DNA of 64,000 nt from Sipunculus nudus (lineage: Eukaryota; Annelida; Sipuncula; Golfingiida; Sipunculidae). Below the pieces are notes generated by a model, which had not been told where the DNA came from, ran no database searches, and saw nothing but the letters and a program-made list of their open reading frames with translations. The stretch spans positions 891,318 to 955,317 of the forward strand of contig CM049314.1 in assembly GCA_026874595.1 (NCBI GenBank), in the 5' to 3' direction. The position numbers and the translations under genes were made by a program. Shown here in pieces: positions 4,368 through 64,000 of the stretch. Position 1 is the first letter of the stretch, and every line of letters starts with the position of its first letter.

Positions 4368-4532
4368 TTCGTCGCCCATGCTAGCTGCCAGAAGAAACTG
4401 TCCACTCTCTGGTACTCCGACTGGCAGATTTTTGACCGTGTGCCATTCCTACTTAAACCACTACTAGCCATCGTATTCGCAGCCATCTTCCCCTTGCTGG
4501 CAGTGCTGTATTTGTTCCTTCCAAAGTCACCG
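4368..4532 (+). CDS. TRPC exon 1 of window: segment before S1
   Basis: The acceptor CTTACAG precedes the exon and the donor GTAAGT follows it; 55 codons, phase 0 at both ends. The translation starts FVAHASCQKKLSTLWYSDW, the FVAHxxCQ-LWY signature of TRPC channels between the linker helices and the first membrane segment. A hydrophobic stretch follows (LLAIVFAAIFPLLAVLYLFL) and the exon ends PKSP. TRPC4 has APKSPLG at the same place, and the next exon begins VG, so the join is natural. In the family this region packs against the TRP helix. The preceding exon is not in the visible sequence, so the start phase rests on the reading frame only. Confidence 0.92.
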
Positions 4533-6272
4533 GTAAGTACAGTTATTATTACCACCGTGTAGGTGTATCTCAGCGGTGGATCCAGGCTTAGGAAAAGGAG
4601 GGGTCCAATCCAGGAGGACTAATAACAAACCTTAAAAACAGTCCCAAGGTCCGGATAAAAGGGTTCAGGCCCTAAAAGTGGCCTGAAGCCCTTGAAAGGT
4701 TGCTGGAGCTGTAAAAGGGGAATCCGGAACCCCGCGACTCGCATCTGTAGCTGTGTGCGTTATCTGACATATTTTAGATTGTATGAGTCGGAGGATGGTA
4801 ACAAGAAGTCTCTTGCCATGCTGCTGTGTTTGTTAGGATGTGTAGTTGTACCCAGAATTTCAATGTAATTGTTTATTAACGGGTAAAACAGAATGAAAGC
4901 GACGCAGTGCTTTTGAATAATCCTTTTAAGTATTTATTTTGGTACTGGACTCCACAAGTAGCCTTTCAAGTAAAATACATTTAGACATGCAAAAATCAGG
5001 CATTTACAACCAACATAGGTCAAGTGGTGTGTCACGTGGATTATGATTCAAAAGGCTTTCTCATTTCTAACTATAAAGTTTTGCAGATTATTAGTAATAA
5101 CGAATATTAGTGGCCATGCCTGTTAAACTTGACTCAGACACTCTGATTCCAAAAACGGAGCGGGCCTACCTTTAATAGATCAGGATGTATGCTAACTATT
5201 TAATGTTAAATGCATGACAGGATTGGGAAGTGTTTAAGATGACGTTCCAACGAAAATATACAGAAAACCTGATACATTGGGCAAAAGAGAAGCTGATGTT
5301 CTGAGACAAGCACTGTAGACTGGGTATATTTTGCTACACACAGTTTGTTAATTTCTGAACATTTTAGCTAAATATGTAATTGTGCATTTTAGCGTTTTTT
5401 TAGAAGCTTTACAATATTTAACGCAAATTATAAACAAAAGTAATACACTGTATTATACAAGAGATGTATAATTTTAGAAAAATAAAGGTTATACAATGAA
5501 ATGTAGTGTTGTTTGAGAGACAAAATGTCTCAAAAGTCGAATTTATTGGCTCATATTTTCATCGTCCGCCATAACAGTATGCATGACGTTGATGACGACG
5601 CCAAGGAAACAGGCTATTTTTGAGCATTTTTGCTCATTACGTCTAAAATATATTTGTTATCAAACACTTTAAGCCTAATTCGTATGTAAGTAAACATTTC
5701 TCCCCTTATTATAGAATAAACAAAATGTGGAAATAATGCGTTAAAAATGGTAAAATAAGCCTTTTACAAAAAACCGCTCAAATGCACAATAACCCCTAAA
5801 TGTGCCTTAGGGCAGATTTCATGTGGTATCTGTTTCTATAAAGAGCATTTGAAAACTCCCTCTGATGTTTCGCTTTAATATTAAAGAATTGTCAGCCAAG
5901 TCCAAGAGCTTTCTACCCATGTACCAGTTAACATGTATCATTTCCCAGGAATTATATATATAACGTCCTTGTTTAGTGTAAAACCTTATTTCAACGTTTA
6001 ACATCTTCCCCGAGAAAGCGTGTTACATTGGTTATATTTGCCAATTGGAGCTTATTAATAGATTTTTATTTACAATAATGCTTCTAATGGACGATGAGCC
6101 CCTTTTCGACCTTCTAACCATCAGTAACAGCAATATTTAGGCAAAACTTTATTCTGTTCCCATCCAATATTATAATAGGTCTAGGCAACCCTTGGAACCG
6201 TATTCTGTTTTTCATGCATAATATTACAAGTTATTTTTAAAAAATGTTAACAGTCAAACGAATCTTACCCAC
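4533..6272 (+). other. Intron 1, non-array part; dispersed-repeat traces
   Basis: AT-rich intron. The first 200 bp (about 4570-4740) contain GTGGATCCAGG and a following purine/pyrimidine-rich block. Similar wording recurs at about 45.7-45.85 kb and 57.70-57.90 kb, suggesting a dispersed invertebrate repeat. Nothing else was recognised before the 33-bp array starts. Confidence 0.45.
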
Positions 6273-9200
6273 TTATGTAACAGGTTGTGCAATTCTTCGT
6301 TATGATGTGTTGACATGTTGTGTAATTCTGCTTTATGATGTATTGAATGGTTGTATATTTCTTCTTAATGATGTGAAGACAGGTTGTGTAATACTTCTCT
6401 GTGATGTATTGACAGATTGTACAATTCATCTTTATGATGTGTTGACAGGTTGTATAATACTTCTCTGTGATGTATTGACAGGTTGTATAATTCATCTTTA
6501 TGATGTGTTCACAGGTTGTATTATACTTCTCTGTGATGTATTGACAGTTGTATAAATCTTCTTTATGATGTGTTGACAGGTTGTATAATACTTCTCTGTG
6601 ATGTATTGACAGGTTGTATAATTCATCTTTATAATGCGTTGACAGGTTGTATAATACTTCTCTGTGATGTATTGACAGGTTGTATTATTCATCTTTATGA
6701 TGTGTTGACAGGTTGTATAATACTTCTCTGTGATGTATTGACAGGTTGTACAATTCTTCTTTATGATGTGTTGACATGTTGTATAAATCTTCTTTATGAT
6801 GTATTGACAGATTGTATAATTCTTCTTTCAGAAATTTTGACAGGTATCTATCTTTGCGGTAAACACTTTTGTCACTTGCCCGGATGAGCCCAGAAACTGT
6901 CGCATCTGCAAATTTTATGTATTGACAGGTTGTATAATACTTGTCTGTGATGTGTTGACAGGTTTTATAATTCATCTTTATGATGTGTTGACAGGTTGTA
7001 TAATACTTCTCTGTGATGTTTTGACATGTTGTATAATTCATCTTTATAATGCGTTGACAGGTTGTATAATACTTCTCTGTGATGTATTGACAGGTTGTAT
7101 TATTCATCTTTATGATGTGTTGACAGGTTGTATAATACTTCTCTGTGATGTATTGACAGGTTGTACAATTCTTCTTTATGATGTGTTGACATGTTGTATA
7201 AATCTTCTTTATGATGTATTGACAGATTGTATAATTCTTCTTTCAGAAATTTTGACAGGTATCTATCTTTGCGGTAAACACTTTTGTCACTTGCCCGGAT
7301 GAGCCCAGAAACTGTTGTCATCTGCAAATTTTATGTATTGACAGGTTGTATAATACTTGTCTGTGATGTGTTGACAGGTTTTATCATTCATCTTTATGAT
7401 GTGTTGACAGGTTGTATAATACTTCTCTGTGATGTTTTGACATGTTGTATAATTCATCTTTATGATGTGTTGACATGTTGTATAATACTTCTCCGTGATG
7501 TATTGACAGATTGTATGATCCATTTTATGATGTGTTGACAGGTTGTATAATACTTCTCTGTGATGTATTGACAGGTTATATAATTCATCTTTATGATATG
7601 CTGACAGGTTGTACAATACTTCTCTGTGATGTATTGACAGGTTGTATAATTCATCTTTATGATGTGTTGACAGGTTGTATAATACTTCTCTGTGATGTAC
7701 TGACAGGTTGTATAATTCATCATTATGATGTATTAACAGGTTGATTAATTCATCTTCATGATGTGTTGACAGGTTGCATAATACTTCTCTGTGATATATT
7801 GACAGGTTGTATAATTCATTTTTTTGATGTGTTGACAGGTTGTATAATACTTTTCTGTGATGTGTTGACAGGTCGTGTAATTCATCTTTATGATGTGTTC
7901 ACAGGTTATTAAAACATGTCTTTGATGTGTTGACAGATTGTATAATTCATCATAATGATGTATTAACAGGTTGTTTTATTCATCTTTATGATGTGTTGAC
8001 AGGTTGTATAATACTTCTCTGTGATGTATTGACAGGTTGTTGTATAATACTTCTATGTGATGTATTGACAGATTGTATAATTCATCTTTATAATGCGTTG
8101 ACAGGTTGTATAATAAATCTCTGTGATGTATTGACAGATTGTATAATTCATCATTTTGACGTATTAACAGGTTGTTTAATTCATCTTTATGATGTGTTGA
8201 CCGGTTGTATTATTCATTTTATGATGTGTTGACAGGTTGTATTATACTTCTCTGTGATGTATTGACAGTTGTATAAATCTTCTTTATGATGTGTTGACAG
8301 GTTGTACAATACTTCTCTGTGATGTATTGACAGGTTGTATAATTCATCTTTATAATGCGTTGACAGGTTGTATAATACATCTCTGTGATGTATTGACAGA
8401 TTGTATAATTCATCATTATGACGTATTAACAGGTTGTTTAATTCATCTTTATGATGTGTTGACCGGTTGTATTATTCATTTTATGATGTGTTGACAGGTT
8501 GTATTATACTTCTCTGTGATGTATTGACAGATTGTATAATTCATCATTATGACGTATTAACAGGTTGTTTAATTCATCTTAATGATGTGTTGACCGGTTG
8601 TATTATTCATTTTATGATGTGTTGACAGGTTGTATTATACTTCTCTGTTATGTATTGACAGTTGTATAAATCTTCTTTATGATGTGTTGACAGGTTGTAC
8701 AATACTTCTCTGTGATGTATTGACAGGATGTATAACTCATCTTTATAATGCGTTGACAGGTTGTATAATACATCTCTGTGATGTATTGACAGGTTGTATA
8801 ATTCATCTTTATGATGTGTTGACAGGTTGTATAATACTTCTCTGTGATGTATTGACAGGTTGTATAATTCATCATTATGACGTATTAACAGGTAGTTTAA
8901 TTTATCTTTATGATGTGTTGACAGGTTGTATAATACTTCTCTGTGATGTATTGACAGGTTGTATAATTCATCTTTATGATGTGTTGACAGGTTGTATAAT
9001 ACTTTTCTGTGATGTGTTGACAGGTCGTGTAATTCATCTTTATGATGCGTTCACAGGTTATTAAAACATGTCTTTGATGTGTTGACAGATTGTATAATTC
9101 ATCATTATGATGTATTAACAGTTTGTTTAATTCATCTTTATGATGTGTTGACAGGTTGTATAATAAATCTCTGTGATGTATTGACAGATTGTATAATTCA

Positions 9201-12200
9201 TCATTTTGACGTATTAACAGGTTGTTTAATTCATCTTTATGATGTGTTGACCGGTTGTATTATTCATTTTATGATGTGTTGACAGGTTGTATTATACTTC
9301 TCTGTGATGTATTGACAGTTGTATAAATCTTCTTTATGATGTGTTGACAGGTTGTACAATACTTCTCTGTGATGTATTGACAGGTTGTATAATTCATCTT
9401 TATAATGCGTTGACAGGTTGTATAATACATCTCTGTGATGTATTGACAGATTGTATAATTCATCATTATGACGTATTAACAGGTTGTTTAATTCATCTTT
9501 ATGATGTGTTGACCGGTTGTATTATTCATTTTATGATGTGTTGACAGGTTGTATTATACTTCTCTGTGATGTATTGACAGATTGTATAATTCATCATTAT
9601 GACGTATTAACAGGTTGTTTAATTCATCTTAATGATGTGTTGACCGGTTGTATTATTCATTTTATGATGTGTTGACAGGTTGTATTATACTTCTCTGTTA
9701 TGTATTGACAGTTGTATAAATCTTCTTTATGATGTGTTGACAGGTTGTACAATACTTCTCTGTGATGTATTGACAGGATGTATAACTCATCTTTATAATG
9801 CGTTGACAGGTTGTATAATACATCTCTGTGATGTATTGACAGGTTGTATAATTCATCTTTATGATGTGTTGACAGGTTGTATAATACTTCTCTGTGATGT
9901 ATTGACAGGTTGTATAATTCATCATTATGACGTATTAACAGGTAGTTTAATTTATCTTTATGATGTGTTGACAGGTTGTATAATACTTCTCTGTGATGTA
10001 TTGACAGGTTGTATAATTCATCTTTATGATGTGTTGACAGGTTGTATAATACTTTTCTGTGATGTGTTGACAGGTCGTGTAATTCATCTTTATGATGCGT
10101 TCACAGGTTATTAAAACATGTCTTTGATGTGTTGACAGATTGTATAATTCATCATTATGATGTATTAACAGTTTGTTTAATTCATCTTTATGATGTGTTG
10201 ACAGGTTGTATAATACTTCTCTGTGATGTATTGACAGGTTGTTGTATAATACTTCTCTGTGATGTATTGACAGGTTGTATAATTCATCTTTATAATGCGT
10301 TGACAGGTTTTATAATACATCTCTGTGATGTATTGACAGATTGTATAATTCATCATTATGACGTATTTACAGGTTGTTTAATTCATCTTTATGATGTGTT
10401 GACCGGTTGTATTATTCATTTTATGATGTGTTGACAGGTTGTATAATACTTCTCTGTGATGTATTGACAGGTTGTATAATTCATTTTATGATGTGTTGAC
10501 AGGTTGTATAATACTTCTCTGTGATGTATTGACAGGTTTTATAATTCATCTTTATAATGCGTTGACAGGTTGTATAATACATCTCTGTGTTGTATTGACA
10601 GATTGTATAATTCATCATTTGACGTATTAACAGGTTGTTTAATTCATCTTTATGATGTGTTGACCGGTTGTATTATTCATTTTATGATGTGTTGACAGGT
10701 TGTATTATACTTCTCTGTGATGTATTGACAGGTTGTATAATTCATCTTTATAATGCGTTGACAGGTTGTATAATACATCTCTGTGATGTATTGACAGATT
10801 GTATAATTCATCATTATGACGTTTAACAGGTTGTTTATTTCATCTTTATGATGTGTTGATCGGTTGTATTATTCATTTTATGATGTGTTGACAGGTTGTA
10901 ATATACTTCTCTGTTATGTATTGACAGTTGTATAAATCTTCTTTATGATGTGTTGACAGGTTGTACAATACTTATCTGTGATGTATTGACAGGATGTATA
11001 ACTCATCTTTATAATGCGTTGACAGGTTGTATAATACATCTCTGTGATGTATTGACAGGTTATATAATTCATCTTTATGATGTGTTGACAGGTTGTATAA
11101 TACTTCTCTGTGATGTATTGACAGGTTGTATAATTCATCATTATGACGTATTAACAGGTAGTTTAATTTATCTTTATGATGTGTTGACAGGTTGTATAAT
11201 ACTTCTCTGTGATGTATTGACAGGTTGTATAATTCATCTTTATGATGTGTTGACAGGTTGTATAATACTTCTCTGTGATGTATTGACAGATTGTATAATT
11301 CATAAATTTGACGTAATAACAGGTTGTTTAATTCATCTTTATGATGTGTTGCAGGTTGTATAATACTTCTCTGTGATGTATTGACAGGATGTATAATTCA
11401 TCTTTATGATGTTTTGAGAGGTTGTACAATACTTCTCTGTGATGTATTGACAGGTTGTATAATTAATCTTTATGATGTGTTGACAGGTTGTATAATACTT
11501 CTCTGTGATGTATTGACAGGTTGTTTAATTCATCTTTATGATGTGTTGACAGGTTGTATAATACTTCTCTGTGATGTAGTGACAGGTTGTATAATTCATT
11601 TTTTGATGTGTTGATAGGTTGTATAATACTTCTCTGTGATGTATTGACAGGTTGTATCATTCATTTTATGATGTGTTGACAGGTTTTATAATACTTCTCT
11701 GTGATGTATTGACAAGTTGTACAATTCTTCCTTATGATGTGTTGACATGTTGTATAAATCTTCTTTATGATGTATTTACACATTGTATAATTCGCCTTTA
11801 AGAAATTATGACAGGTATATTTCCTTGCGGAAAACACTTTCGTTATTTCCCCGGATGAGCCCGTAACTGTTGTGTCATGTGCAAATGTTATTTATTGACA
11901 GGTTGTATAATTCTTGTCCGTGATGTGTTGACAGGTTGTATAATTTCAATTTTTGATTTGTTGATTGGTTGTATATTTCTTCTTTATGATGTGTTGACAG
12001 GTTGTATAATACTTCTCTGTGATGTATTGACAGGTTGTATAATTCATCTTTATAATGCGTTGACAGGTTTTATAATACATCTCTGTGATGTATTGACAGA
12101 TTGTATAATTCATCATTATGACGTATTTACAGGTTGTTTAATTCATCTTTACGATGTGTTGACCGGTTGTATTATTCATTTTATGATGTGTTGACAGGTT

Positions 12201-15200
12201 GTATAATACTTCTCTGTGATGTATTGACAGGTTGTATAATTCATTTTATGATGTGTTGACAGGTTGTATAATACTTCTCTGTGATGTATTGAAAGGTTTT
12301 ATAATTCATCTTTATAATGCGTTGACAGGTTGTATAATACATCTCTGTGTTGTATTGACAGATTGTATAATTCATCATTTGACGTATTAACAGGTTGTTT
12401 AATTCATCTTTATGATGTGTTGACCGGTTGTATTATTCATTTTATGATGTGTTGACAGGTTGTATTATACTTCTCTGTGATGTATTGACAGGTTGTATAA
12501 TTCATCTTTATAATGCGTTGACAGGTTGTATAATACATCTCTGTGATGTATTGACAGATTGTATAATTCATCATTATGACGTATTAACAGGTTGTTTATT
12601 TCATCTTTATGATGTGTTGACCGGTTGTATTATTCATTTTATGATGTGTTGACAGGTTGTAATATACTTCTCTGTGATGTATTGACAGTTGTATAAATCT
12701 TCTTTATGATGTGTTGACAGGTTGTACAATACTTCTCTGTGATGTATTGACAGGATGTATAACTCATCTTTATAATGCGTTGACAGGTTGTATAATACAT
12801 CTCTGTGATGTATTGACAGGTTATATAATTCATCTTTATGATGTGTTGACAGGTTGTATAATACTTCTCTGTGATGTATTGACAGGTTGTATAATTCATC
12901 ATTATGACGTATTAACAGGTAGTTTAATTTATCTTGATGATGTGTTGACAGGTTGTATAATACTTCTCTGTGATGTATTGACAGGTTGTATAATTCATCT
13001 TTATGATGTGTTGACAGGTTGTATAATACTTCTCTGTGATGTATTGACAGATTGTATAATTCATAAATTTGACGTAATAACAGGTTGTTTAATTCATCTT
13101 TATGATGTGTTGCAGGTTGTATAATACTTCTCTGTGATGTATTGACAGGATGTATAATTCATCTTTATGATGTTTTGAGAGGTTGTACAATACTTCTCTG
13201 TGATGTATTGACAGGTTGTATAATTAATCTTCATGATGTGTTGACAGGTTTCTCTAATAATTCTACGTGATGTATTGACAGGTTGTATAATTCATCTTTA
13301 TGATGTGTTGACAGGTTGTATAATACTTCTCTGTGATGTATTGACAGGTTGTATAATTCATCTTTATGATGTGTTGACAGGTTGTATAATACTTCCCTGT
13401 ATTGTATTGACAGGTTGTATAATTCATCTTTATGATGTGTTGACAGGTTGTATAATACTTCTCTGTGATGTATTGACAGGTTGTATAATTCATTTTATGA
13501 TGTGTTGACAGGTTGTATAATACTTCTCTGTGATGTTTTGACAAGTTGTATAATTCATCTTTATGATGTGTTGACACATTGTATAATTCGTCTTTAAGAA
13601 ATTATGACAGGTATATTTCCTTGCGGAAAACACTTTCGTTATTTCCCCGGATGAGCCCGTAACTGTTGTGTCATGTGCAAATGTTATTTATTGACAGGTT
13701 GTATAATTCTTGTCCGTGATGTGTTGACAGGTTGTATAATTTCAATTTACGATTTGTTGATAGGTTGTATATTTCTTCTTAATGATGTGTTGACAGGTTG
13801 TATAATACTTCTCTGTGATGTATTGACAGGTTGTATAATTCATCTTTATAATGCGTTGACAGGTTGTATAATACTTCTCTGTGATGTATTGATTGACGGG
13901 TTGTATAATTCATCTTTATGATGTGTTGACAGGTTGTATAATACTTCTCTGTGATATATTGACAGGTTGTATAATTCATCATTATTGCATATTAACAGGT
14001 TGTTTAATTCATCTTTATGATGTGTTGACAGGTTGTATAATACTTCTCTGTGATGTATTGACAGGTTGTTTAATTCATCTTTATGATGTGTTGACAGGTT
14101 GTATAATACTTCTCTGTGATGTAGTGACAGGTTGTATAATTCATTTTTTGATGTGTTGATAGGTTGTATAATACTTCTCTGTGATGTATTGACAGGTTGT
14201 ATCATTCATTTTATGATGTGTTGACAGGTTTTATAATACTTCTCTGTGATGTATTGACAAGTTGTACAATTCTTCCTTATGATGTGTTGACATGTTGTAT
14301 AAATCTTCTTTATGATGTATTTACACATTGTATAATTCGCCTTTAAGAAATTATGACAGGTATATTTCCTTGCGGAAAACACTTTCGTTATTTCCCCGGA
14401 TGAGCCCGTAACTGTTGTGTCATGTGCAAATGTTATTTATTGACAGGTTGTATAATTCTTGTCCGTGATGTGTTGACAGGTTGTATAATTTCAATTTTTG
14501 ATTTGTTGATTGGTTGTATATTTCTTCTTTATGATGTGTTGACAGGTTGTATAATACTTCTCTGTGATGTATTGACAGGTTGTATAATTCATCTTTATAA
14601 TGCGTTGACAGGTTGTATAATACTTCTCTGTGATGTATTGACAGGTTGTATAATTCATTTTATGATGTGTTGACAGGTTGTATAATACTTCTCTGTGATG
14701 TATTGACAGGTTGTATAATTCATTTTATGATGTGTTGACAGGTTGTATAATACTTCTCTGTGATGTATTGACAAGTTGTACAATTCTTCCTTATGATGTG
14801 TTGACATGTTGTTTAAATCTTCTTTATGATGTATTGACACATTGTATAATTCGTCTTTAAGAAATTATGACAGGTATATTTCCTTGCGGAAAACACTTTC
14901 GTTATTTCCCCGGATGAGCCCGTGACTGTTGTGTCATGTGCAAATGTTATTTATTGACAGGTTGTATAATTCTTGTCCGTGATGTGTTGACAGGTTGTAT
15001 AATTTCAATTTTTGATTTGTTGATAGATTGTATATTTCTTCTTAATGATGTGTTGACAGGTTGTATAATACTTCTCTGTGATGTATTGACAGGTTGTATA
15101 ATTCATCTTTATAATGCGTTGACAGGTTGTATAATACTTCTCTGTGATGTATTGATTGACGTGTTGTATAATTCATCTTTATGATGTGTTGACAGGTTGT

Positions 15201-18200
15201 ATAATACTTCTCTGTGATATATTGACAGGTTGTATAATTCATCATTATGACATATTAACAGGTTGTTTAATTCATCTTTATGATGTGTTGACAGGTTGTA
15301 TAATACTTCTCTGTGATGTATTGACAGGTTATTTAAATCATCTTTATGATGTGTTGACAGGTTGTATAATACTTCTCTGTGATGTATTGACAGGTTGTAT
15401 AATTCATTTTTTGATATGTTGATAGGTTGTATAATACTTCTCTGTGATGTATTGACAGGTTGTATAATTCATTTTATGATGTGTTGACAGGTTTTATAAT
15501 ACTTCTCTGTGATGTATTGTCAAGTTGTAAAATTCTTCCTTATGATGTGTTGACATGTTGTATAAATCTTCTTTATGATGTATTGACACATTGTATAATT
15601 CGTCTTTAAGAAATTATGACAGGTATATTTCCTTGCGGAAAACACTTTCGTTATTTCCCCGGATGAGCCCGTAACTGTTGTGTCATGTGCAAATGTTATT
15701 TATTGACAGGTTGTATAATTCTTGTCCGTGATGTGTTGACAGGTTGTATAATTTCAATTTGTGATTTGTTGATAGGTTGTATATTTCTTCTTTATGATGT
15801 GTTGACAGGTTGTATAATACTTCTCTGTGATGTATTGACAGGTTGTATAATTCATCTTTATAATGCGTTGACAGGTTGTTTAATTCATCTTTATGATGTG
15901 TTGACAGGTTGTATAATACTTCTCTGTGATGTATTGACAGGTTGTATAATTCATCTTTATGATGTGTTGACAGGTTGTATAATACTTCTCTGTATTGTAT
16001 TGACAGGTTGTATAATTCATCTTTATGATGTGTTGACAGGTTGTATAATACTTCTCTGTGATGTATTGACAGGTTGTATAATTCATCTTTATGATGTGTT
16101 GACAGGTTGTATATTACTTCCCTGTATTGTATTGACAGGTTGTATAATTCGTCTTTAAGAAATTATGACAGGTATATTTCCTTGCGGAAAACACTTTCGT
16201 TATTTCCCCGGATGAGCCCGTAACTGTTGTGTCATGTGCAAATGTTACTTATTGACAGGTTGTATAATTCTTGTCCGTGATGTGTTGACAGGTTGTATAA
16301 TTTCAATTTACGATTTGTTGATAGGTTGTATATTTCTTCTTAATGATGTGTTGACAGGTTGTATAATACTTCTCTGTGATGTATTGACAGGTTGTATAAT
16401 TCATCTTTATAATGCGTTGACAGGTTGTATAATACTTCTCTGTGATGTATTGATTGACGGGTTGTATAATTCATCTTTATGATGTGTTGACAGGTTGTAT
16501 AATACTTCTCTGTGATATATTGACAGGTTGTATAATTCATCATTATGACATATTAACAGGTTGTTTAATTCATCTTTATGATGTGTTGACAGGTTGTATA
16601 ATACTTCTCTGTGATGTATTGACAGGTTGTTTAATTCATCTTTATAATGTGTTGACAGGTTGTATAATACTTCTCTGTGATGTAGTGACAGGTTGTATAA
16701 TTCATTTTTTGATGTGTTGATAGGTTGTATAATACTTCTCTGTGATGTATTGACAGGTTGTATCATTCATTTTATGATGTGTTGACAGGTTTTATAATAC
16801 TTCTCTGTGATGTATTGACAAGTTGTACAATTCTTCCTTATGATGTGTTGACATGTTGTATAAATCTTCTTTATGATGTATTTACACATTGTATAATTCG
16901 CCTTTAAGAAATTATGACAGGTATATTTCCTTGCGGAAAACACTTTCGTTATTTCCCCGGATGAGCCCGTAACTGTTGTGTCATGTGCAAATGTTATTTA
17001 TTGACAGGTTGTATAATTCTTGTCCGTGATGTGTTGACAGGTTGTATAATTTCAATTTTTGATTTGTTGATAGGTTGTATATTTCTTCTTTATGATGTGT
17101 TGACAGGTTGTATAATACTTCTCTGTGATGTATTGACAGGTTGTATAATTCATCTTTATAATGCGTTGACAGGTTGTATAATACTTCTCAGTGATGTATT
17201 GACAGGTTGTATAATTCATTTTATGATGTGTTGACAGGTTGTATAATACTTCTCTGTGATGTATTGACAGGTTGTATAATTCATTTTATGATGTGTTGAC
17301 AGGTTATATAATACTTCTCTGTGATGTATTGACAAGTTGTACAATTCTTCCTTATGATGTGTTGACATGTTGTTTAAATCTTCTTTATGATGTATTGACA
17401 CATTGTATAATTCGTCTTTAAGAAATTATGACAGGTATATTTCCTTGCGGAAAACACTTTCGTTATTTCCCCGGATGAGCCCGTAACTGTTGTGACATGT
17501 GCAAATGTTATTTATTGACAGGTTGTATAATTCTTGTCCGTGATGTGTTGACAGGTTGTATAATTTCAATTTATGATTTGTTGACAAGTTGTATATTTCT
17601 TTTTTATGATGTGTTGATTGATTGTTTATTTCTTTTTTAAGAAAAGTTGCCAAGTTGTGTAATTCTTCATAATGATGTATTGACAGGTTGTGAACCTTTT
17701 TAATATGAATTGTCAGGCTGTGTACTTTTTTAATATGTGGTGACACGTTGTTTATTTCCTTTTTAAGAATTGTTGACAGGTTGTATATTTCTTCTTCATG
17801 ATGTATCGACAGGTAGTATACATCTTTAATGTGTGTCGACAGGTTGTATATTTTTAATTTATGATGTGTTGACAGGTTGTATATTTCTTGTTTATGATGT
17901 GTTGATAGATTGTGTTATTCTTCTTTGAGAAAAGTTGCCAAGTTGTGTAATTCATCATAATGTTGTATTGACAGGTTGTGTACATTTTTAATATGTATTG
18001 TCAGGCTGTGTACTTTTTTAATATGTGTCGACAGGTGGTTTATTTCCACTTCATGATGTATTGACAGGTTGTATAATTTTTCTTTAAGAAGTGTTGACGG
18101 ATTGTATATTCCTCTTTATGATGTAATAGCAGGTTGTCTTTATCTTTAATATGTGTTGACAGGTTGTATATTTGTTCAATATGGGTTGACAGGTTGTATA

Positions 18201-19414: not shown

Positions 19415-19682
19415 GTCGGACGGTTCCTCCGGATTCCTTTCATTCGGTTCATTGCCAGGACATGTTCTGCCATCACATTTACCATTCTAATCGTCGTAGC
19501 CAGTCTAACAGATAATGCCGGCTTCGCCGCTTTCCAACCTCCCACAGATTTTCCGCAATATCACCGACTTGCCACAGAATATTTCGCTAATTTGACGGGT
19601 GTATATAGTAAAATGGCGGAATTCCGGATCCGGCATACAACTCCGAGCGCTATGCAGCTGGTTCTTTCAATTTGGATTATAG
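19415..19682 (+). CDS. TRPC exon 2: S1 and the S1-S2 extracellular loop
   Basis: 268 nt, entering in phase 0 and leaving one base of a split Gly codon. It reads VGRFLRIPFIRFIARTCSAI, matching the TRPC FGRxLRxPFxKFI pattern at the start of S1, then the hydrophobic TFTILIVVASL. A long loop of about 50 residues follows, with an N-glycosylation sequon (NLT), before MQLVLSIWIIG, the start of S2 (family: MLIMVWVLG). The acceptor AG at 19413-19414 is the TTGACAG of the last unit of the 33-bp array, and the donor GTAAGT is at 19683. In the exon frame the codon just upstream of CAG is TGA, so array sequence cannot be added in frame. The 39-bp array begins about 30 bp after the donor, so this exon is sandwiched between two satellites. 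Confidence 0.92.
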
Positions 19683-21412: not shown

Positions 21413-22129
21413 GACTTTGCGATGTCTTGTGCATAAAACAGGTATCAGTAAACAGTTTTCTTTCGTGCCGTCGTGGAATTAGTATTAGAAAAATGGCATG
21501 GCTGACTCTGGGCTAATATTTTGCTTAATATATTTTTAAAATAAACGTATTTCATACAGAAAAAATGAAATAAAAGAATGTAAAGAAAGTAAATCGGCGG
21601 AATCTTATCTTTGATATATGCCCCTGAAGTTCAGAATATACTAATAATATAACTTGTATCCAGAATTTTCCAGAATATCTGCGCTCCAAATAAATCAACA
21701 TTTAGTATTCAAAAATATTACAATGTCCTCCAAGAAATTTCAACATCAGCAGATGTCTAAGTAAACACCCTGATAGGGATTAATTCAAACATAGACTTCT
21801 TGTCTCCATATCCACTCCTATATAAGCTGGAACTGGCAAATAAACAACATCTTGTACAAAGAGATTCAAACTTGCTTGCTTAGTAACCACGAGGTAACAG
21901 TCGCAGTATTATTTCAGTAAGGTAATTATCTCATTGGAAACGTAACCGCAACCAGGAAGTTAGTTTCTGGTTCATTTAAGGACGTATCATTTTTTTGTTG
22001 GTTGGTTTCGCAAAACGATTTTTTTTCTGTGAAAGAAGACACATAATTCATTCGTCTTACTCATATTTTGTCACTGGTTAGATATATGCTTGGCCGGGTG
22101 GTTTATCTGTCAGAACCTTTACTCAACAC
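21411..22129 (+). other. Intron 2, no feature recognised
   Basis: AT-rich intron sequence between the AT microsatellite and the next tandem array. No exon, RNA gene or known repeat could be supported. Confidence 0.5.

Positions 22130-51703: not shown

Positions 51704-51752
<49 letters not shown>
51704..51752. repeat. (AT)n then (GTAT)n microsatellite
   Basis: About 19 AT dinucleotides followed by four GTAT steps, in intron 6. Confidence 0.95.
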
Positions 51753-51755
<3 letters not shown>

Positions 51756-51985: not shown

Positions 51986-52187
51986 CATTGAACAGACGTT
52001 TATCACGGTGTACTGGGCGCTGTTCGGGATGGGAGAGAAGAACGCCGTGGAGCTGGGAGATAAGTATGATAAGGGCTTCACAGAGAGGTTTGGTTACGTC
52101 ATGTTCGGGCTGTACAACTGGGCTATGGTCCTCATGTTGTTAAACATGCTGATTGCCATGATGTCCATGAGCTTTGAGATCATCCAG
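51986..52187 (+). CDS. TRPC exon 7: pore helix, selectivity filter and S6
   Basis: 202 nt: one base completes Ser, then 67 codons to phase 0. Acceptor TTTTCCCTCAG, donor GTAAAT. It reads SIEQTFITVYWALFGMGEK, then GFTERFGYVMFGLYN and VLMLLNMLIAMMSMSFEIIQ. TRPC family: ETFxxLFWxIFGL, FxExxGxxxFGxYN, VLLNMLIAMxNxSFQxI. The FG of the filter and the NMLIAM gate helix are kept. The family LFW motif before the filter reads VYW, and the N of IAMxNxS reads M or S (IAMMSMS). Both are unusual for TRPC. Confidence 0.96.
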
Positions 52188-52647
52188 GTAAATTATGTTA
52201 AGCTGACAATTATGTTTAAATCTTACGAAACAGTGCATCTTATAAGTGCAATAAAAAAACCTTCTTAAAAATATAATAAGAACAAACATAAATAAGAAAT
52301 ATTTCTATATGCATTTTGCCGGATACCATGTCCAATAAATAATTTATGCGGACATCTCAAATAAACTTTATTTTATTTCGTGATTTTAATATGTTTGATG
52401 ACTACGATACTATAGTGTTGGCGTCACAAGCCTTTCTTGTTTAGATGCTTTACCTCAGCGGTTTACTTCATAATTTATATTAAATTACTTTTTTTTGATA
52501 CGCCTAAATTTATTTGCTTTCAATAAGTTGAAAATAACTGTTAAAGCCAGAAGTAAAACAATTAAAATTAAATACCAAAAAAGGGTGTTTTTTATATAAA
52601 AACAGATACAGGAAATTGAGTCAAAGAGTAAGAATAGCGAAAACTTG
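52188..52647 (+). other. Intron 7 before the 27-bp array
   Basis: AT-rich intron sequence with no recognised feature. It holds the donor-side part of the intron; the rest is array. Confidence 0.5.
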
Positions 52648-55600
52648 GAGAAGTTGTGTATTCTGACTGTGTTGGTGAAGATGTGCATTCTGACTGTGTT
52701 GGTGAAGTTGTGCATTCTGACTGTGTTGGTGAAGTTGTGCATTCTGACTGTGTTGGTGAAGTTGTGCATTCTGACTGTGTTGGTGAAGTTGTACATGCTG
52801 ACTGTGTTGGCGACGTTGTGCATTCTGACAGTGTTGGTAAAGTTGTGCAATCTGGCTATGTTGGCGACGATGTGCATTCTGACTGTGTTGGTGAAATTGT
52901 GCATTCTAACTTTGTTGGCGACGTTGTGCTTCCTGACTGTGTTGGCGACATTGTGCATTCTCACTGTGTTGGTGAAGTTGTCATTCTGACTGTGTTGGCG
53001 ACGTCATGCATTCTGACTGTTTTGGTGAATTTGTGCATTCTGACTGTGTTGACGAGGTTGTGCATTCTGATTGTGTTGGTGAATTTGTGCATTCTGACTG
53101 TGTTGGTGAATATGTGCAGTCTGACTGTGTTGGCAAAGTTGTGCATTCTAACTGTGTTGGTGAAGTTGTGCATTCTGACTGTGTTGGTAAAGCTGTGCAT
53201 TCTGACTGTGTTGGTATAGTTGTGCATTCTGACTGTCATGGCGACGTTGTGCATTCTGACTGTGTTGGCGACGTTGTGCTTTCTGACTGTGTTGATGATT
53301 TAGTGCATTCTGACTGTGTTGGCGACGTTGTGCAATCTGTCTGTTGGCGACGTTGTGCATCCTGACCGTTGGCGATGTTGTTAATTCTCACTGTGTTGGT
53401 GAAGTTGTGCATTCTGACTGTGTTGGTGAAGTTGTTCATTCTGACTGTTGGCGACGTTGTCCATTCTGACCGTGTTGGTGAATTAGTGCATTCTGACTGT
53501 GTTGGTGAAGTTGTGCATTCTGAATGTGATGGCGACGTTGGCATTCTGACTATGTTGGTGAAGATGTGCATTCTGGCTGTGTTTGCGACGATGTGCATTC
53601 TGACTTTGTTGGTGAAATTGTGCATTCTGACTTTGTTGGCGATGTTGTGCTTTCTGACTGTGTTAGTGACGTTGTGCATTCTCACTGTGTTGGTGTAGTT
53701 TTCATTCTGAATGTGTTTGCGACGTCAGGCATTATGACTGTGTTGGTGAAGTTGTGCATTCGGACTGTGTTGGCGATGTTGTGCATTCTGACTGTGTTGG
53801 TAAAGATGTGCATTCTGGCTCTGTTGGCGACGATGTGCATTCTGACTGTGTTGGTGAAATTATACATTCTGACTTTGTTGGCGACGTTGTGCATTCTGAC
53901 TGTGTTGGTGACGTTGTGCATTCTTACTGTGTTGGTGGGAGTTGGCCATTCTGGCTGTGTTTGTGAATTTGTGCATTGTGACTGTTTTTGGCGACATTGT
54001 GCATTCTGACTATGTTGGCGACGTTGTGCTTTCTGACTGTGTTGGCGACGTTGTGCATTCTGACTGTATTGGTGAAGTTGTGCATTCTGACTCTGATGGC
54101 GACGTTGGCATTCTGACTGTTGGCGACGTTGTGCATTCGATTGTGTGGGTGAATTTGTGCATTCTGACTGTGTTGGTGAAGTTGTGCATTCTGACTGTGA
54201 TGGCGACGTTGGCATTCTGACTATGTTGGTGAAATTGTGCATTCTGGCTGTGTTGGCGACGATGTGCATTCTGACTTTGTTGGTGAAATTGTGCATTCTG
54301 ACTTTGTTGGCGATGTTGTGCTTTCTGACTGTGTTGGTGACGTTGTGCATTCTCACTGTGTTGGTGTAGTTGTCATTCTGAATGTGTTTGCGACGTCAGG
54401 CATTATGACTGTGTTGGTGAAGTTGTGCATTCGGACTGTGTTGGCGATGTTGTGCATTCTGACTGTGTTGGTAAAGATGTGCTACTGGCTGTGTTGGCGA
54501 CGATTTGCATTCTGACTGTGTTGGTGAAATTATACATTCTGACTTTGTTGGCGACGTTGTGCATTCTGACTGTGTTGGTGACGTTGTGCATTCTTACTGT
54601 GTTGGTGGGAGTTGTGCATTCTGGCTGTGTTTGTGAATTTGTGCATTGTGACTGTTTTTGGCGACATTGTGCATTCTGACTGTGTTGGCGACGTTGTGCT
54701 TTCTGACTGTGTTGGCGACGTTGTGCATTCTGACTGTATTGGTGAAGTTGTGCATTCTGACTGTGATGGCGACGTTGGCATTCTGACTGTTGGCGACGTT
54801 GTGCATTCTGATTGTGTGGGTGAATTTGTGCATTCTGACTGTGTTGGTGAAGTTGTGCATTCTGACTGTGATGGCGACGTTGGCATTCTGACTATGTCGG
54901 CGACGTTGTGCGTTCTGACTATGTTGGTGAATATGTACATTCTGGCTGTGTTGGCGACGTTGTGCATTCTGACTGTGTTGATGAAGTTGTGCATTTTGGC
55001 TTTGTTGGCGACGATGTGCATTCTGACTGTGTTGGTGAAATTGTGCATTCTGACTTTGTTGGCGACGTTGTGCTTTCTGACTGTGTTGGTGACGTTGTGC
55101 ATTCTCACTGTGTTGGTGTAGTTGTCATTCTGACTGTGTTGGCGACGTCATGCATTCTGACTGTGTTGGCGACGTCATGCATTCTGACCGTGTTGGTGAA
55201 GTTGTGCATTCTGACCATGTTTGCGACGTTGTGCATTCTGACTGTGATGGCGACGTTGGCATTCTGACTGTTGGCGACGTTGTGCATTCTGACTTTGTTG
55301 GTAAAGATGTGCATTCTGGCTGTGTTGGCGACGATGTGCATTCTGACTGTGTTGGTGAAATTATACATTCTGACTTTGTTGGCGACGTTGTGCATTCTGA
55401 CTGTGTTGGTGACGTTGTGCATTCTTACTGTGTTGGTGGGAGTTGTGCATTCTGGCTGTGTTTGTGAATTTGTGCATTGTGACTGTTTTTGGCGACATTG
55501 TGCATTCTGACTGTGTTGGCGACGTTGTGCTTTCTGACTGTGTTGGCGACGTTGTGCATTCTGACTGTATTGGTGAAGTTGTGCATTCTGACTGTGATGG

Positions 55601-56560
55601 CGACGTTGGCATTCTGACTGTTGGCGACGTTGTGCATTCTGATTGTGTGGGTGAATTTGTGCATTCTGACTGTGTTGGTGAAGTTGTGCATTCTGACTGT
55701 GATGGCGACGTTGGCATTCTGACTATGTTGGCGACGTTGTGCGTTCTGACTATGTTGGTGAATATGTACATTCTGGCTGTGTTGGCGACGTTGTGCATTC
55801 TGACTGTGTTGATGAAGTTGTGCATTTTGGCTTTGTTGGCGACGATGTGCATTCTGACTGTGTTGGTGAAATTGTGCATTCTGACTTTGTTGGCGACGTT
55901 GTGCTTTCTGACTGTGTTGGTGACGTTGTGCATTCTCACTGTGTTGGTGTAGTTGTCATTCTGACTGTGTTGGCGACGTCATGCATTCTGACTGTGTTGG
56001 CGACGTCATGCATTCTGACCGTGTTGGTGAAGTTGTGCATTCTGACCATGTTTGCGACGTTTTGCATTCTGACTGTGATGGCGACGTTGGCATTCTGACT
56101 GTTGGCGACGTTGTGCATTCTGATTGTGTTGGTGATTATGTACATTCTGGCTGTGTTGGCGACGTTGTGCATTGTGACTATGTTGGTGACGTTATGCATT
56201 GTGACTGTGTTTGTGAAGTTGTGCATTCTGACTGTGTTGGTGAAGTTGTGCATTCTGACTGTGATGGCGACTTTGTGCATTCTGACTGTTTTGGTGAATT
56301 AGTGCATTCTGACTGTGTTGGCGATGTTTTGCATTCTGACTGTGTTGGTGACGTTGTGCTTTCTGACTGTGTTGGCAACGTTGTGCATTCTGACTGTGTT
56401 GGCGACGTTGTGCATTCTGACTTTGTTGGCGATGTTTTGCATTCTGACTGTGTTGGTGACGTTGTGCTTTCTGACTGTGTTGGCAACGTTGTGCATTCTG
56501 ACTGTGTTGGCGACGTTGTGCATTCTGACTTTGTTGGCGACGTTGTGCATTCTGACTGTG
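52648..56560. repeat. 27-bp minisatellite, about 145 copies, ending 12 bp before exon 8
   Basis: Unit GTTGTGCATTCTGACTGTGT then TGGTGAA, with common variants GGCGACG for GGTGAAG and TTTG for TGTG. An 831-bp segment near 54.53-55.12 kb is repeated almost exactly at 55.36-55.95 kb. Another of about 671 bp links 53.57 and 54.24 kb. The last partial unit (GCATTCTGACTGTG) runs into TACTCCTCTCAG, the acceptor of exon 8. Open frames on both strands (plus: 9-residue period CILTVLVKL or VHSDCVGEV; minus: MHNFTNTVR) arise because 27 is divisible by three. Confidence 0.97.
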
Positions 56561-56572
56561 TACTCCTCTCAG

Positions 56573-56797
56573 TCTGACTCTGACACGGAGTGGAAGTTTT
56601 CACGGTCTCAGCTTTACATGGAGTACATCCGTGAAGGATCGACACTGCCACCTCCATTCAACATCATCCCAAGTCCAAAGTCCGTCATGTACTTGTTCCG
56701 GCTATGCTGCAAGAGCTTGAAGAACAGGAGAGGTGGAACGAGACGCGCATACGAGTTGGAACAAGTGGACGAACCGGGAGAGGGCGGGCTAGATAAC
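56573..56797 (+). CDS. TRPC exon 8: TRP box and post-TRP segment
   Basis: 225 nt, 75 codons, phase 0 at both ends; acceptor TACTCCTCTCAG, donor GTAAGA. It reads [19 protein letters not shown] then [25 protein letters not shown] is the TRP box (EWKFAR in most family members), and [13 protein letters not shown] is the diagnostic TRPC post-TRP segment. A basic stretch follows ([12 protein letters not shown]), then an acidic end. In the family this region couples S6 to the cytosolic domains and leads to the calmodulin/IP3-receptor binding part. The frame is also open through the array upstream to 56303, so an earlier acceptor could in principle add up to 90 in-frame repeat codons. Confidence 0.96.
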
Positions 56798-58423: not shown

Positions 58424-58558
58424 CGTGGAATACAGCTTGAATCGCAAACAGTGGGCGCTGGTGTTCCGACGCAGACTACAACCGTTGACGCGAGTGGAGG
58501 CAAGACAACTAACTTCAAACCATACAAACAGTATACACAAAGTAAACCCAAATACCAG
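58424..58558 (+). CDS. TRPC exon 9: C-terminal tail, source of the 56-bp array
   Basis: 135 nt, 45 codons, phase 0 at both ends; acceptor TTTATATTTACAG, donor GTGAGA. It begins RGIQLESQTVGAGVPTQTTT and ends FKPYKQYTQSKPKYQ. In TRPC proteins a YQ just before VMRxLVxRYV is a conserved site in the tail, so the next exon is expected to start with that motif; it is not in the window. The last 45 nt (15 codons) plus the first 11 nt of the intron are the unit repeated about 98 times in the array that follows. An alternative acceptor (AATACAG) sits 9 nt further in. Weaker conservation than the channel core, but phase and splice sites are clean. Confidence 0.85.
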
Positions 58559-61500
58559 GTGAGACGATCTTCAAACCATACAAACACGGGGTGACATAAA
58601 TGCGGACCGAACTGTCTCGCTAGTAAAGCTAGAACCCACATGGGTTCGACTCCAGGATCTGCCCAATATTTTCCCCTGAGCAATTTGTCTTCGAAATAAA
58701 ATGGGGCTCGTCCAACGTGAAGGTAAACTTTGTTGCCCAGGGAATAAGCTCACCAAAGTGTGACTCCTGGGATAATTAGTCTAGTTCTGATAACAGAACG
58801 CTCTTTAGAGCAGGTGTGTAACGGGGTGACATGAAAGCGGACCGAACCGTCTCGCTAGTGAAGCTTGCTTTTCTAGCGAAGCAGTTGGAACGCCAGACAT
58901 ATCCGCGACCCACATGGATTCGAATCCCGGATCGGCCCAGTATTTTCCCCTGAGCAATTTGTATTCGTAACAATACACAAAGTAAACCCAAATACCAGCC
59001 GAGACGACCTTCAAACCATACAAACAGTATACACAGAGTAAACTAATATAACAGGTGAGACGGATCTTCAAACCATAAAAACAATATACACAGAGTAAAC
59101 CCAAATACCAGGTGAGACGATCTTCAAACCATACAAACAGTATACACAGAGTAAACCCAAATACCAGGTGAAACGATCTTCAAACCATACAAACAGTATA
59201 CACAGATTAAACCCAAATACCAAGTGAGACGACCTTCAAACCATACAAACAATACACACAGAGAAACCCAAATACCAGGGGAGACGATCTTCAAACCATA
59301 CAAAAAGTATACACAGAGTAAACCCAAATACCAGGTGAGACGACCTTCAAAACCATACAAACAGTATACACAGAGAAACCCAATTAACAGATGAGACGAC
59401 CTTCAAACCATACAAACAATATACACAGAGAAACTCAAATACCAGGTGAGACGACCTTCAAACCATACAAACAGTATACACAGAGTAAACCCAAATACCA
59501 GGTGTGACGACCTTCAGACCATACAAATAGTATACACAGAGTAAACCCAAATACCAGGTGAGACGATCTTCAAACCATACAAACAGTATACACAAAGTAA
59601 ACCCAAATACCAGGTGAAACGATCTTCAAACCATACAAAGAGTATACACAGATTAAACCCAAATACCAAGTGAGACGACCTTCAAACCATACAAACAATA
59701 TACACAGAGAAACCCAAATACCAGGGGAGACGATCTTCAAACCATACAAAAAGTATACACAGAGTAAACCCAAATACCAGGTGAGACGACCTTCAAAACC
59801 ATACAAACAGTATACACAGAGAAACCCTATTAACAGATGAGACGACCTTCAAACCATACAAACAATATACACAGAGAAACACAAATACCAGGTGAGACGA
59901 CCTTCAAACCATACAAACAGTATACAGAGAATAAACCCAAATACCAGGTGTGACGACCTTCAAACCATACAAATAGTATACATAGAGTAAACCCAAATAC
60001 CAAGTGAGACGATCTTCAAACCATACAAACAGTATACACAGATTAAACCAAAATACCAGGTGACACTATCTTCAAACCATACAAACAGTATACACAGAGT
60101 AAACCCAAATACCAAGTGAGACGACCTTCAAACCATACAAACAGTATACACAGAGAAAACCAAAATACCAGGCGAGACGACCTTCAAACCATACCAACAT
60201 TATACACAGATTAAACCCAAATACCAGGTGACAGTACCTTTAAACCATAGAAACAGTATACACAGATTAAACCCAAATACCAGGATAAACGATTTTCAAA
60301 CCATACAAACGGTATACACAGAGTAAACCCAAATATTAAGTGAGACGACCTTCGAACCATACATACAGTATACACAGAGTAAACCCAAATACCAAGTGAA
60401 ACGACTTTCAAACCATAGAAACAATATACACAGAGAAACCCAAATACCAGGTGAGACGATCTTCAAACCATACAAAAAGTATACACAGAGTAAATCCAAA
60501 TACCAGGTGAGACGACCTTCAAAACCATACAAACAGTATACACAGAGAAACCCAATTAACAGATGAGACGACCTTCAAACCATACAAACAATATACACAG
60601 AGAAACTCAAATACCAGGTGAGACGACCTTCAAACCATACAAACAGTATACACAGAGTAAACCCAAATACCAGGTGTGACGACCTTCAAACCATACAAAT
60701 AGTATACACAGAGTAAACCCAAATACCAGGTGAGACGATCTTCAAACCATACAAACAGTATACACAAAGTAAACCCAAATACCAGGTGAGACGACCTTCA
60801 AACCATACAAACAGTATACACAGAGTAAACCCAAATACCAAGTGAGACGACCTTCAAACCATTCAAACAGTATACACAGAGAAAACCAGAATACTAGGAG
60901 AGACGACCTTCAAACCATACAAACAGTATACACAGATTAAACCAAAATACCAGGTGACACTATCTTCAAACCATACAAACAATATACACAGAGAAACTCA
61001 AATACCAGGTGAGACGACCTTCAAACCATACAAACAGTATACAGAGAATAAACCCAAATACCAGGTGTGACGACCTTCAGACCATACAAATAGTATACAC
61101 AGAGTAAACCCAAATACCAGGTGAGACGATCTTCAAACCATACAAACAGTATACACAAAGTAAACCCAAATACCGGGTGAAACGATCTTCAAACCATACA
61201 AAGAGTATACACAGTAAACCCAAATACCAAGTGAGACGATCTCCAAACCATACAAACAGTATACACAGAGTAAACCCAAATACCAGGTGAACGATCTTCA
61301 AACCATACAAAAAGTATACACAGAGTAAACCCAAATACCAGGTGAGACGACCTTCAAAACCATACAAACAGTATACACAGAGAAACCCTATTAACAGATG
61401 AGACGACCTTCAAACCATACAAACAATATTCACAGAGAAACTCAAATACCAGGTGAGACGACCTTCAAACCATACAAACAGTATACAGAGAGTAAACCCA

Positions 61501-64000
61501 AATACCAGGTGTGACGACCTTCAAACCATACAAATAGTATACACAGAGTAAACCCAAATACCAGGTGAGACGATCTTCAAACCATACAAACAGTATACAC
61601 AAAGTAAACCCAAATACCAGGTGAGACGACCTTCAAACCATACAAACAGTATACACAGAGTAAACCCAAATACCAAGTGAGACGACCTTCAAACCATTCA
61701 AACAGTATACACAGAGAAAACCAGAATACTAGGAGAGACGACCTTCAAACCATACAAACAGTATACACAGATTAAACCAAAATACCAGGTGACACTATCT
61801 TCAAACCATACAAACAATATACACAGAGAAACTCAAATACCAGGTGAGACGACCTTCAAACCATACAAACAGTATACAGAGAATAAACCCAAATACCAGG
61901 TGTGACGACCTTCAGACCATACAAATAGTATACACAGAGTAAACCCAAATACCAGGTGAGACGATCTTCAAACCATACAAACAGTATACACAAAGTATAC
62001 CCAAATACCGGGTGAAACGATCTTCAAACCATACAAAGAGTATACACAGTAAACCCAAATACCAGGTGAGACGATCTCCAAACCATACAAACAGTATACA
62101 CAGAGTAAACCCAAATACCAGGTGAAACGATCTTCAAACCATACAAAAAGTATACACAGAGTAAACCCAAATACCAGGTGAGACGACCTTCAAATCCATA
62201 CAAACAGTATACACAGAGAAACCCTATTAACAGATGAGACGACCTTCAAACCATACAAACAATATACACAGAGAAACTCAAATACCAGGTGAGACGACCT
62301 TCAAACCATACAAACAGTATACAGAGAATAAACCCAAATACCAGATGTGACGACCTTCAAACCATACAAATAGTATACACAGAGTAAACCCAAATACCAG
62401 GTGAGACGATCTTCAAACTATACAAACAGTATACACAGAGTAAACCAAAATACCAGGTGAGACGACCTTCAAACCCTACAAATAGTATACATAGAGTAAA
62501 CCCAAATACAAAGTGAGACGATCTTCAAACCATACAAACAGTATACACAGATAAAACCAAAATACCAGTTGACACTATCTTCAAACCATACAAACAGTAT
62601 ACACAGAGTAAACCCAAATACCAAGTGAGACGACCTTCAAACCATACAAACAGTATACACAGAGAAAACCAAAATACCAGGCGAGACGACCTTCAAACCA
62701 TACCAACATTATACACAGATTAAACCCAAAGACCAGGTGACAGTACCTTTAAACCATACAAACAGTATACACAGATTAAACCCAAATACCAGGTGAAACG
62801 ATTTTCAAACCATACAAACGGTATACACAGAGTAAACCCAAATATTAAGTGAGACGACCTTCGAACCATACATACAGTATACACAGAGTAAACCCAAACA
62901 CCAAGTGAGACGACTTTCAAACCCTAGAAACAATATATACAGAGAAAACCAAATACCAAGTGAGACGACCTTCAAACCATACAAACAGTATACACAGAGA
63001 AAACCAAAATACCAGGCGAGACGACCTTCAAACCATACCAACATTATACACAGATTAAACCCAAATACCAGGTGACAGTACCTTTAAACCATACAAACAG
63101 TATACACAGATTAAACCAAAATACTAGGCGAGACGACCTTCAAACCATACAAACAGTATACACAGATTAAACCCAAATTCCAGGTGGCAGTACCTTTAAA
63201 CCATACAAACAGTATACACAAAGTAAACCCAAATACCAGGTGAGACGACCTTCAAACCATACAAACAGTATACAGAGAGTAAACCCAAATACTAGGTTTG
63301 ACGACTTTCAAACCATACAAATAATATACACAGAGTAAACCCAAATACCAGTTGAGACGATCTTCAAACCATACAAACAGTATACACAGAGTAAACCCAA
63401 ATACCAAGTGAGACGACCTTCAAACCATACAAATAGTATACACAGAGTAAACCCAAATACCAAGTGAGACGATCTTCAAACCATACACACAGTATACACA
63501 GAGTAAACCCAAGTACCAGGTGAGACAACCTTCAAAACATACAAACAGAGTACACAGATTAAACCAAATTACCAGGTGACACTATCTTCAAACCATACAA
63601 ACAGTATACACAGAGTAAACCCAAATACCAAGTGAGACGTCCTTCAAACAATACAAAGAGTATACACAGAGTAAACCCAAATACCAAGTGAGACTTCAAA
63701 CCATACAAACAGAATACACACAGTAAACCCAAGTACCAGGTTAGACAACCTTCAAAACATACAAACAGTATACACAGATTAAACCAAATTACCAGGTGAC
63801 ACTATCTTCAAACCATACAAACAGTATACACAGAGTAAACCCAAATACCAAGTGAGACGACCTTCAAACCATACAAACAGTATGCACAGGGAAAACCAAA
63901 ATACTAGGCGAGACGACCTTCAAACCATACAAACAGTATACACAGATTAAACCCAAATTCCAGGTGGCAGTACCTTTAAACCATACAAACAGTATACACA
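58514..64000 (+). repeat. 56-bp minisatellite of exon end plus splice donor, about 90-98 copies, continues past the window
   Basis: Unit TTCAAACCATACAAACAGTA then TACACAGAGTAAACCCAAAT then ACCAGGTGAGACGACC. The first unit is the real 3' end of exon 9 (45 nt) with 11 nt of intron. Most copies keep a donor-like CAG|GTGAGA or CAA|GTGAGA; variants include GTGTGA, GTGAAA and GTGACA. Higher-order copies are visible, for example 59.37-59.96 kb, 60.55-61.1 kb and 61.4-62.0 kb. The array is split near its start by the tRNA-like insertion. The unit length is not a multiple of three, so reading through shifts frame. Minus-strand frames (WYLGLLCVYCLYGLK and similar) are repeat shadows. Confidence 0.97.
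58588..58972 (+). mobile_element. tRNA-like SINE insertion (two related copies) inside the 56-bp array
   Basis: Two related blocks start GGGGTGACAT (58588 and 58824), continue GCGGACCGAACTGTCTCGCT or GCGGACCGAACCGTCTCGCT, and end with CCCACATGGGTTCGACTCC or CCCACATGGATTCGAATCCC, then CAGTATTTTCCCCTGAGCAA. GATTCGAATCC fits the Pol III B box; a TAGTGAAGC word upstream could be a weak A box. The second copy has about 46 extra bases between the boxes. Between them lies 130 bp of other sequence. They interrupt the 56-bp unit within its ATACAAACA part. A SINE is the best reading; a tRNA gene is not, since no cloverleaf could be built. Confidence 0.5.

Follow-up and report, generated by a model that had tools for sequence, protein, structure and literature searches.

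A very large junction-spanning minisatellite in a TRPC gene of Sipunculus nudus

Known junction-spanning repeats and the exon 9 donor

Tandem repeats that span splice junctions have already been named: the mirages of amphioxus, found in Adh3, the globins BflGb6 and BflGb9, troponin C and PGBD5, cover exon-intron borders at donors as well as acceptors, with splice signals in many of their units (PMC3087553, PMC3902484). Mirages are described as leaving mRNA splicing undisturbed, their length is unstable between haplotypes or tissues (3 and 6 repeat units in the two haplotypes of BflGb6), and they offer a model for intron gain. Intron gain by tandem duplication of AGGT sites goes back to Rogers 1989, cited in PMC3087553, and a tandem-duplication intron gain is reported for the potato RdRp (PMC4974935). 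Here we describe a very large and clean further case of a junction-spanning minisatellite, in a TRPC channel gene of Sipunculus nudus (GCA_026874595.1), located in a stretch of 64,000 nucleotides of contig CM049314.1 (C9:891318-955317, hereafter the window) within a searched assembly of 1.43 Gb and 153 contigs. The reading that we favour, and regard as probable, is that ordinary minisatellite birth was tolerated at junctions and amplified by location, in such a way that location, and not the splice junctions, drives the giant introns.

In the window, nine exons bordered by AG/GT form a single open frame of 514 residues, of which residues 1-449 match TRPC channels (top Protein Data Bank match TRPC3, E=8.5e-84), and the product also matches the Pfam Ion_trans domain. 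The exons are the following:

4368..4532, plus strand: TRPC exon 1, where the open frame across nine exons begins
19415..19682, plus strand: TRPC exon 2
22959..23098, plus strand: TRPC exon 3
24555..24654, plus strand: TRPC exon 4
25169..25320, plus strand: TRPC exon 5
45340..45494, plus strand: TRPC exon 6
51986..52187, plus strand: TRPC exon 7
56573..56797, plus strand: TRPC exon 8
58424..58558, plus strand: TRPC exon 9, its final 45 bp being the first copy of a 56-bp unit

The largest junction-spanning repeat lies at the donor of exon 9, where three features follow one another:

58514..58569, plus strand: founder-like 56-bp copy including the donor, with 45 exonic and 11 intronic bases
58586..58972, plus strand: insert of two SINE-like modules, separating the first from the later 56-bp copies
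58973..64000, and on to window coordinate 71678, plus strand: 56-bp array, about 228 copies over 12.7 kb

A first reading of this DNA, made from the sequence only, had proposed that the 56-bp array starts inside exon 9 and repeats the exon end plus its donor. This was borne out: the founder-like copy agrees with the array consensus at 54 of 56 bases, and in three copies of the array a single base sets them apart from the exon 9 copy. As in mirages, many but not all of the units keep a splice signal: the GT is conserved in 184 of the 226 full copies, and the complete AGGTGAG in 76 of them. Unlike BflGb6, with its few units, the array here is more than 12 kb long, and the genome, at 1.43 Gb, exceeds the roughly 0.5 Gb of amphioxus genomes. 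In the fetched flank beyond the window we recognized by eye an exon 10 (DVIKDIVKRFI...) around 14.4 kb past exon 9, and an exon 11 around 4.6 kb further on, both of which resume the protein in frame downstream of the array. The exon 9 donor thus fits the working site of the gene, and exon 9 is the gene's own, so that the array was derived from exon 9 or exchanged with it. Read-through past this donor meets, also by eye, a TGA at the twelfth codon, within the insert.

The two modules of the insert, putatively of SINE type, resemble each other (45 nt at 91% and 66 nt at 88%); from its position between the first and the later copies, the insert probably entered after the array had started. These features also bear on whether repeated reads were stacked by the assembler into false exon-overlapping copies. 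The copy number of the amphioxus PGBD5 repeat varies between two genome versions, which speaks for such an artefact. Here, on the other side, the 56-bp copies diverge from their consensus by 6.6% on average within the window, and by 7.1% when the array is taken as a whole, and the insert splits the first copy from the rest, a pattern that stacking of one sequence would not produce; we consider this explanation very improbable.

Duplications across the junctions of the window gene

Each of the 18 junctions of the window gene was searched for a second copy, within 700 bp, matching both sides of the junction, and 400 random array-free positions of the window were used as a null, whose 99% level lay at a score of 14. 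The score was 63 at donor 9, 39 at acceptor 4 and 13.5 at acceptor 2 (P 0.025); at each of the remaining 15 junctions, acceptor 8 among them, it was 7 or less. Two junctions of the 18 are therefore clear, one is suggestive and 15 are negative, which falls short of the four in nine exons first credited with a junction duplication. The features at the three acceptors are:

24480..24576, plus strand: 43-bp duplication (2.2 copies) across the exon 4 acceptor, true acceptor at 24554/24555 and copy at 24511/24512
6280..19414, plus strand: 33-bp minisatellite of about 405 copies, 88% of intron 1
52645..56561, plus strand: 27-bp array, 89% of intron 7, stopping 11 bp before exon 8

The duplication of the exon 4 acceptor was thus confirmed. 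Together with donor 9 it shows that, as in mirages, units span the exon-intron border and both 5' and 3' borders are involved in the same gene, a comparison that rests here on the sequence of one assembly. The exonic content of these two units also decides about an alternative that sees in the arrays local copies of dispersed satellites or of pieces of transposons, resembling junctions by coincidence. Minisatellites are dense over the whole 144-kb locus, outside the gene too, and terminal samples of other chromosomes are likewise filled with arrays, as that alternative would have it; by contrast, the 56-bp unit holds 45 bases of the gene's own coding exon and the 43-bp pair holds the start of exon 4, which refutes it for both units. 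For the arrays as a whole it appears quite improbable.

At exon 2, the 33-bp array ends exactly at the acceptor, as proposed, its terminal ACAG being the acceptor itself. The further claim, that the unit looks like this acceptor, held in part: the AG at the junction column is kept in 306 of the 404 full copies, but the likeness to the exon is marginal. Beyond the AG, unit and exon agree at 9 of 16 positions in register, with six transitions (P 0.009 against all exon positions, 0.046 against those starting with GT; profile P 0.037); in the copy most like the exon, 11 of 16 agree (P 0.02 against other exon stretches). Copies closer to exon 2 showed no greater likeness to it.

The 27-bp array had been said to end 12 bp before exon 8 and to resemble its start. 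It does end 11 bases before it (56561 vs 56573), and a 10-base word is shared with the exon start (P=0.0007 over 10 nt, 0.005 over 12 and 0.05 over 16; best-alignment P=0.073), but the likeness at the junction failed, as no duplicated copy spans the exon 8 acceptor (crossing P=0.67). An exon 8 origin of this array was accordingly rejected as unsupported.

Paralogues, chaperonin genes and random positions

A TRPC search of the genome gave 41 matches, in the window gene and several others, which served as controls from the same genome: a compact paralogue on contig C11, and paralogues with junction arrays on C10 and C1. At every one of the intron positions 1-7, an in-phase splice site is present in the C11 paralogue (32.9 Mb). 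Its introns 1, 2, 5, 6 and 7 measure 368 (from a doubtful donor, in L052), 1197, 364, 1184 and 713 bp, introns 3 and 4 plus exon 4 take 3002 bp together, and the only array that it holds is a small one of 34 bp, located between exons 4 and 5. Like in intron gain by AGGT duplication, the tandem duplications of the window gene carry splice signals; unlike it, they made no new intron, because positions 1-7, those covered by the comparison, are common to both genes. In the C10 paralogue (L039, C10:3620671-3623853), the end of exon 7 plus gtaagt is repeated at 951-1213 in 58-bp copies, about four in a row, so that its donor 7 is a donor-type mirage whose unit spans the border as in those of amphioxus; an array stops 5 bp before acceptor 8 of the same gene. 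In the C1 paralogue (L045, C1:28391050-28394190), several copies of about 30 bp ending in TCAG were seen by eye at around 761-889, before the exon 7 acceptor and in register with it, on the intron side only and with no exon sequence. That junction copies seeded arrays is thus supported. The clearest case is the exon 9 donor; the exon 7 donor of the C10 gene is an independent one, and the exon 7 acceptor of the C1 gene contributes its intron side only.

Whether junctions are preferred seeds is a different matter. It can be argued that T-rich acceptors and AGGT donors give microhomology and that splicing hides the copies, in such a way that junctions breed minisatellites, and the junction-linked arrays at acceptor 4, donor 9 and, suggestively, acceptor 2 of the window gene, at donor 7 and near acceptor 8 of the C10 gene and at acceptor 7 of the C1 gene are what this would produce. 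The rates do not follow it. Among 39 automatically placed paralogue junctions, one was crossed by a duplication (donor 7, C10:3.62 Mb) and the others scored 8.5 or less; in total, at a score of 30, 3 of 57 TRPC junctions were crossed, vs 75 of the 1260 positions drawn at random in the paralogue loci, which overlap one another in part. In the chaperonin genes (19 of 63 matches sampled; flank searched per junction 400 bp, vs 700 bp for TRPC), none of 37 junctions was crossed, and 1 of 760 random positions. In interior stretches 114 of 960 random positions reached this score, a set that leans towards repeats as it includes L001-L008, chosen by their donor-pair pattern. Sampled exon interiors were never crossed (0/148 and 0/193). 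Within samples of this small size, junctions act as non-coding positions do and not as favoured ones; the enrichment above chance that the sequence-only reading had asked for did not appear in the TRPC and chaperonin samples, so that its idea of junctions as repeated seeds survives for individual junctions and is unsupported, in these samples, as a preference.

A one-sided test gave a similar result, being positive at 4 of 53 junctions in TRPC genes and at none of 35 in chaperonin genes, with a background of 2.5-9% of splice-like motifs (TRPC paralogue loci, interior stretches and array-free parts of the window), a background that included true junctions. This test missed donor 9, where the insert pushes the next copy beyond 300 bp, and L045, where unit lengths are unequal. 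Five doubtful paralogue junctions were left out of it (L035 acceptor 224, L040 donor 55, L042 donor 275, L048 donor 275 and L052 donor 55) and acceptor 889 of L045 was added, giving 35 paralogue junctions, while all 39 stay in the 3/57; two weak chaperonin donors, L074 and L082, were omitted. Nine of the GroEL-like matches have an equal score and a 547-aa open frame (C61, C62, C66, C72, C73, C75, C89 with two, and C99), and from these sequences some small contigs look bacterial, of a symbiont or a contaminant.

Pairs of donor words were also counted over the genome, as matches and not as separate places, a single array yielding many. GGTAAGT pairs at 17 bp are rarer than those of the reversed word (8 vs 54), which does not fit a preference for junctions. 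Pairs of CAGGTAAGT occur at no fewer than 20 separate places on C1 and C2, the donor word alone being counted, and tandem repeats with a donor are therefore not rare in this genome. Altogether, the donor-pair counts neither prove nor exclude an excess of donors. At C2:37218027-37223264, around 5 kb hold dozens of CAGGTAAGT pairs, most of them with a spacing of 53 bp, which makes this stretch a candidate for a second giant mirage of the donor type.

Location and the growth of the introns

The remaining arrays of the introns, called like the others with Tandem Repeats Finder, are:

19719..21030, plus strand: 39-bp array of intron 2, beginning 36 bp past donor 2
22117..22697, plus strand: 48/121-bp array of intron 2
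26142..45207, plus strand: 73-bp array of intron 5, 264 copies, 19 kb, 95% of the intron
46247..46543, plus strand: 39-bp array of intron 6
49083..50323, plus strand: 69-bp array of intron 6

The array share is 58% in intron 2, 24% in intron 6 and 89% in intron 9, whose 14.4 kb lie for the most part outside the window, and no array was called in introns 4 and 8; minus the arrays, introns 1-8 measure 468-4953 bp each. Junction homology was looked for and not found in the 39-bp array of intron 2 or in the 73-bp array, the largest, which borders no junction and so speaks against junctions as preferred seeds. Mean divergence from the unit consensus is 15.7% for the 33-bp, 10.7% for the 27-bp and 8.3% for the 73-bp array, 4.3% and 5.9% for the 39-bp arrays of introns 2 and 6, and 4.3% for the 69-bp array, a range that makes the very different ages first suggested for the arrays plausible. 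A search of Rfam gave no match. We considered a transposon with inverted ends around the 69-bp array, and found just weak 14-base arms. CAGGT is present in 9 of 26 units (shuffle mean 1.27), an enrichment that was discounted as a sign of junction origin because several units belong to one palindromic family.

The contig that carries the gene is 79.8 Mb long, and the gene is situated 0.9 Mb from its start. Arrays cover around 64% of the 144-kb locus, also outside the gene (26 array calls, slightly overlapping), vs 3103 of 63000 interior bases, or 4.9% (eight stretches, laxer threshold), and two arrays near the gene carry CCCTAA repeats in their units. Of 1.5-kb samples taken within 2 Mb of contig ends, six of ten were at least 98% array and four nearly array-free, vs none of eight interior samples (Fisher P=0.013). 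Location would thus account for most of the intron growth, and we infer that a subtelomeric minisatellite belt is the cause of the giant introns. Junction seeding as the general route to giant introns was not supported here. Subtelomeric minisatellites are described in the human genome (HRAS1, CEB1 and CEB25; PMC3486850), and those of S. nudus are similarly situated near chromosome ends; unlike them, they lie here within the introns of a conserved gene, in places including exon edges.

In the scenario that we favour, a normal TRPC gene with old intron positions would sit in a belt rich in minisatellites, close to the end of a chromosome. Short duplications in tandem would arise throughout the non-coding DNA of the belt and some would reach hundreds of copies, presumably through unequal exchange or slippage. 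A few of the original duplications would have happened across a splice junction, and these would be tolerated, since the exon retains a donor or acceptor of its own and further copies land in the intron, which requires, presumably, splicing at the outermost correct site. The outcome would be the mirage arrangement, in its extreme size at the exon 9 donor.

Several observations weigh against this reading. The evidence for the belt is a set of ten small samples from contig ends, of which two are a satellite of about 375 bp and not minisatellites, the "chromosome end" is here a contig end, and the junction samples are small. Two of the 14 ends of seven arrays fall within 12 bp of a junction, with 0.15 expected (P=0.0075), as preferred seeding would predict. 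In the same direction, CAGGTAAGT pairs 29-59 bp apart are commoner over the genome than those of the reversed word, with 719 matches vs 315. The proximity of array ends was given less weight because the introns were small before the arrays grew. With the arrays collapsed to one unit each, the gene takes around 15 kb from exon 1 to donor 9, and nine random seeds cross 0.5 junctions on average, two or more with P=0.08-0.09, which is no clear enrichment; if three crossed junctions are counted instead of two, P falls to 0.01. On balance, we consider a preference for junctions unlikely.

A tentative extension, which we also hold to be rather unlikely, is that a splice junction shelters minisatellites: the coding exon would act as a selected founder exchanging sequence with its own array, so that both co-evolve and the intron can grow without limit. 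In the 226 full copies of the 56-bp array, exon-derived columns diverge by 5.75% vs 12.8% for the intron-derived ones, a contrast equalled by 2 of 56 rotations, and variation is greatest at third codon positions (permutation P=0.03). Exchange with a selected exon would lead to this pattern, these P values being rough since the copies are non-independent. The copies were also considered as small alternative exons and rejected, just 11 bases separating the exon-like parts and 24 of the 89 full copies of the window having a stop within the exonic part.

Introner elements, where similar sequence makes introns in many genes, were considered through an exact 33-mer search, which gave 0 matches and missed its own array too. 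Among the matches listed in the literature on intronic minisatellites and duplicated splice sites, in which subscription papers were few, no further such case was found. The locus lends itself to studying the choice of a single donor or acceptor by the spliceosome when hundreds of copies are almost the same, and the influence that the position of a gene near a chromosome end has on intron length.

Upstream of exon 1, a 61-bp minisatellite at 2612-3010 of the window has several CCCTAA telomere-like repeats per unit, and a similar array lies upstream of the window. On the minus strand, open frames were seen by eye at 510-1025, which resemble a decayed transposase, putatively of the mariner type.

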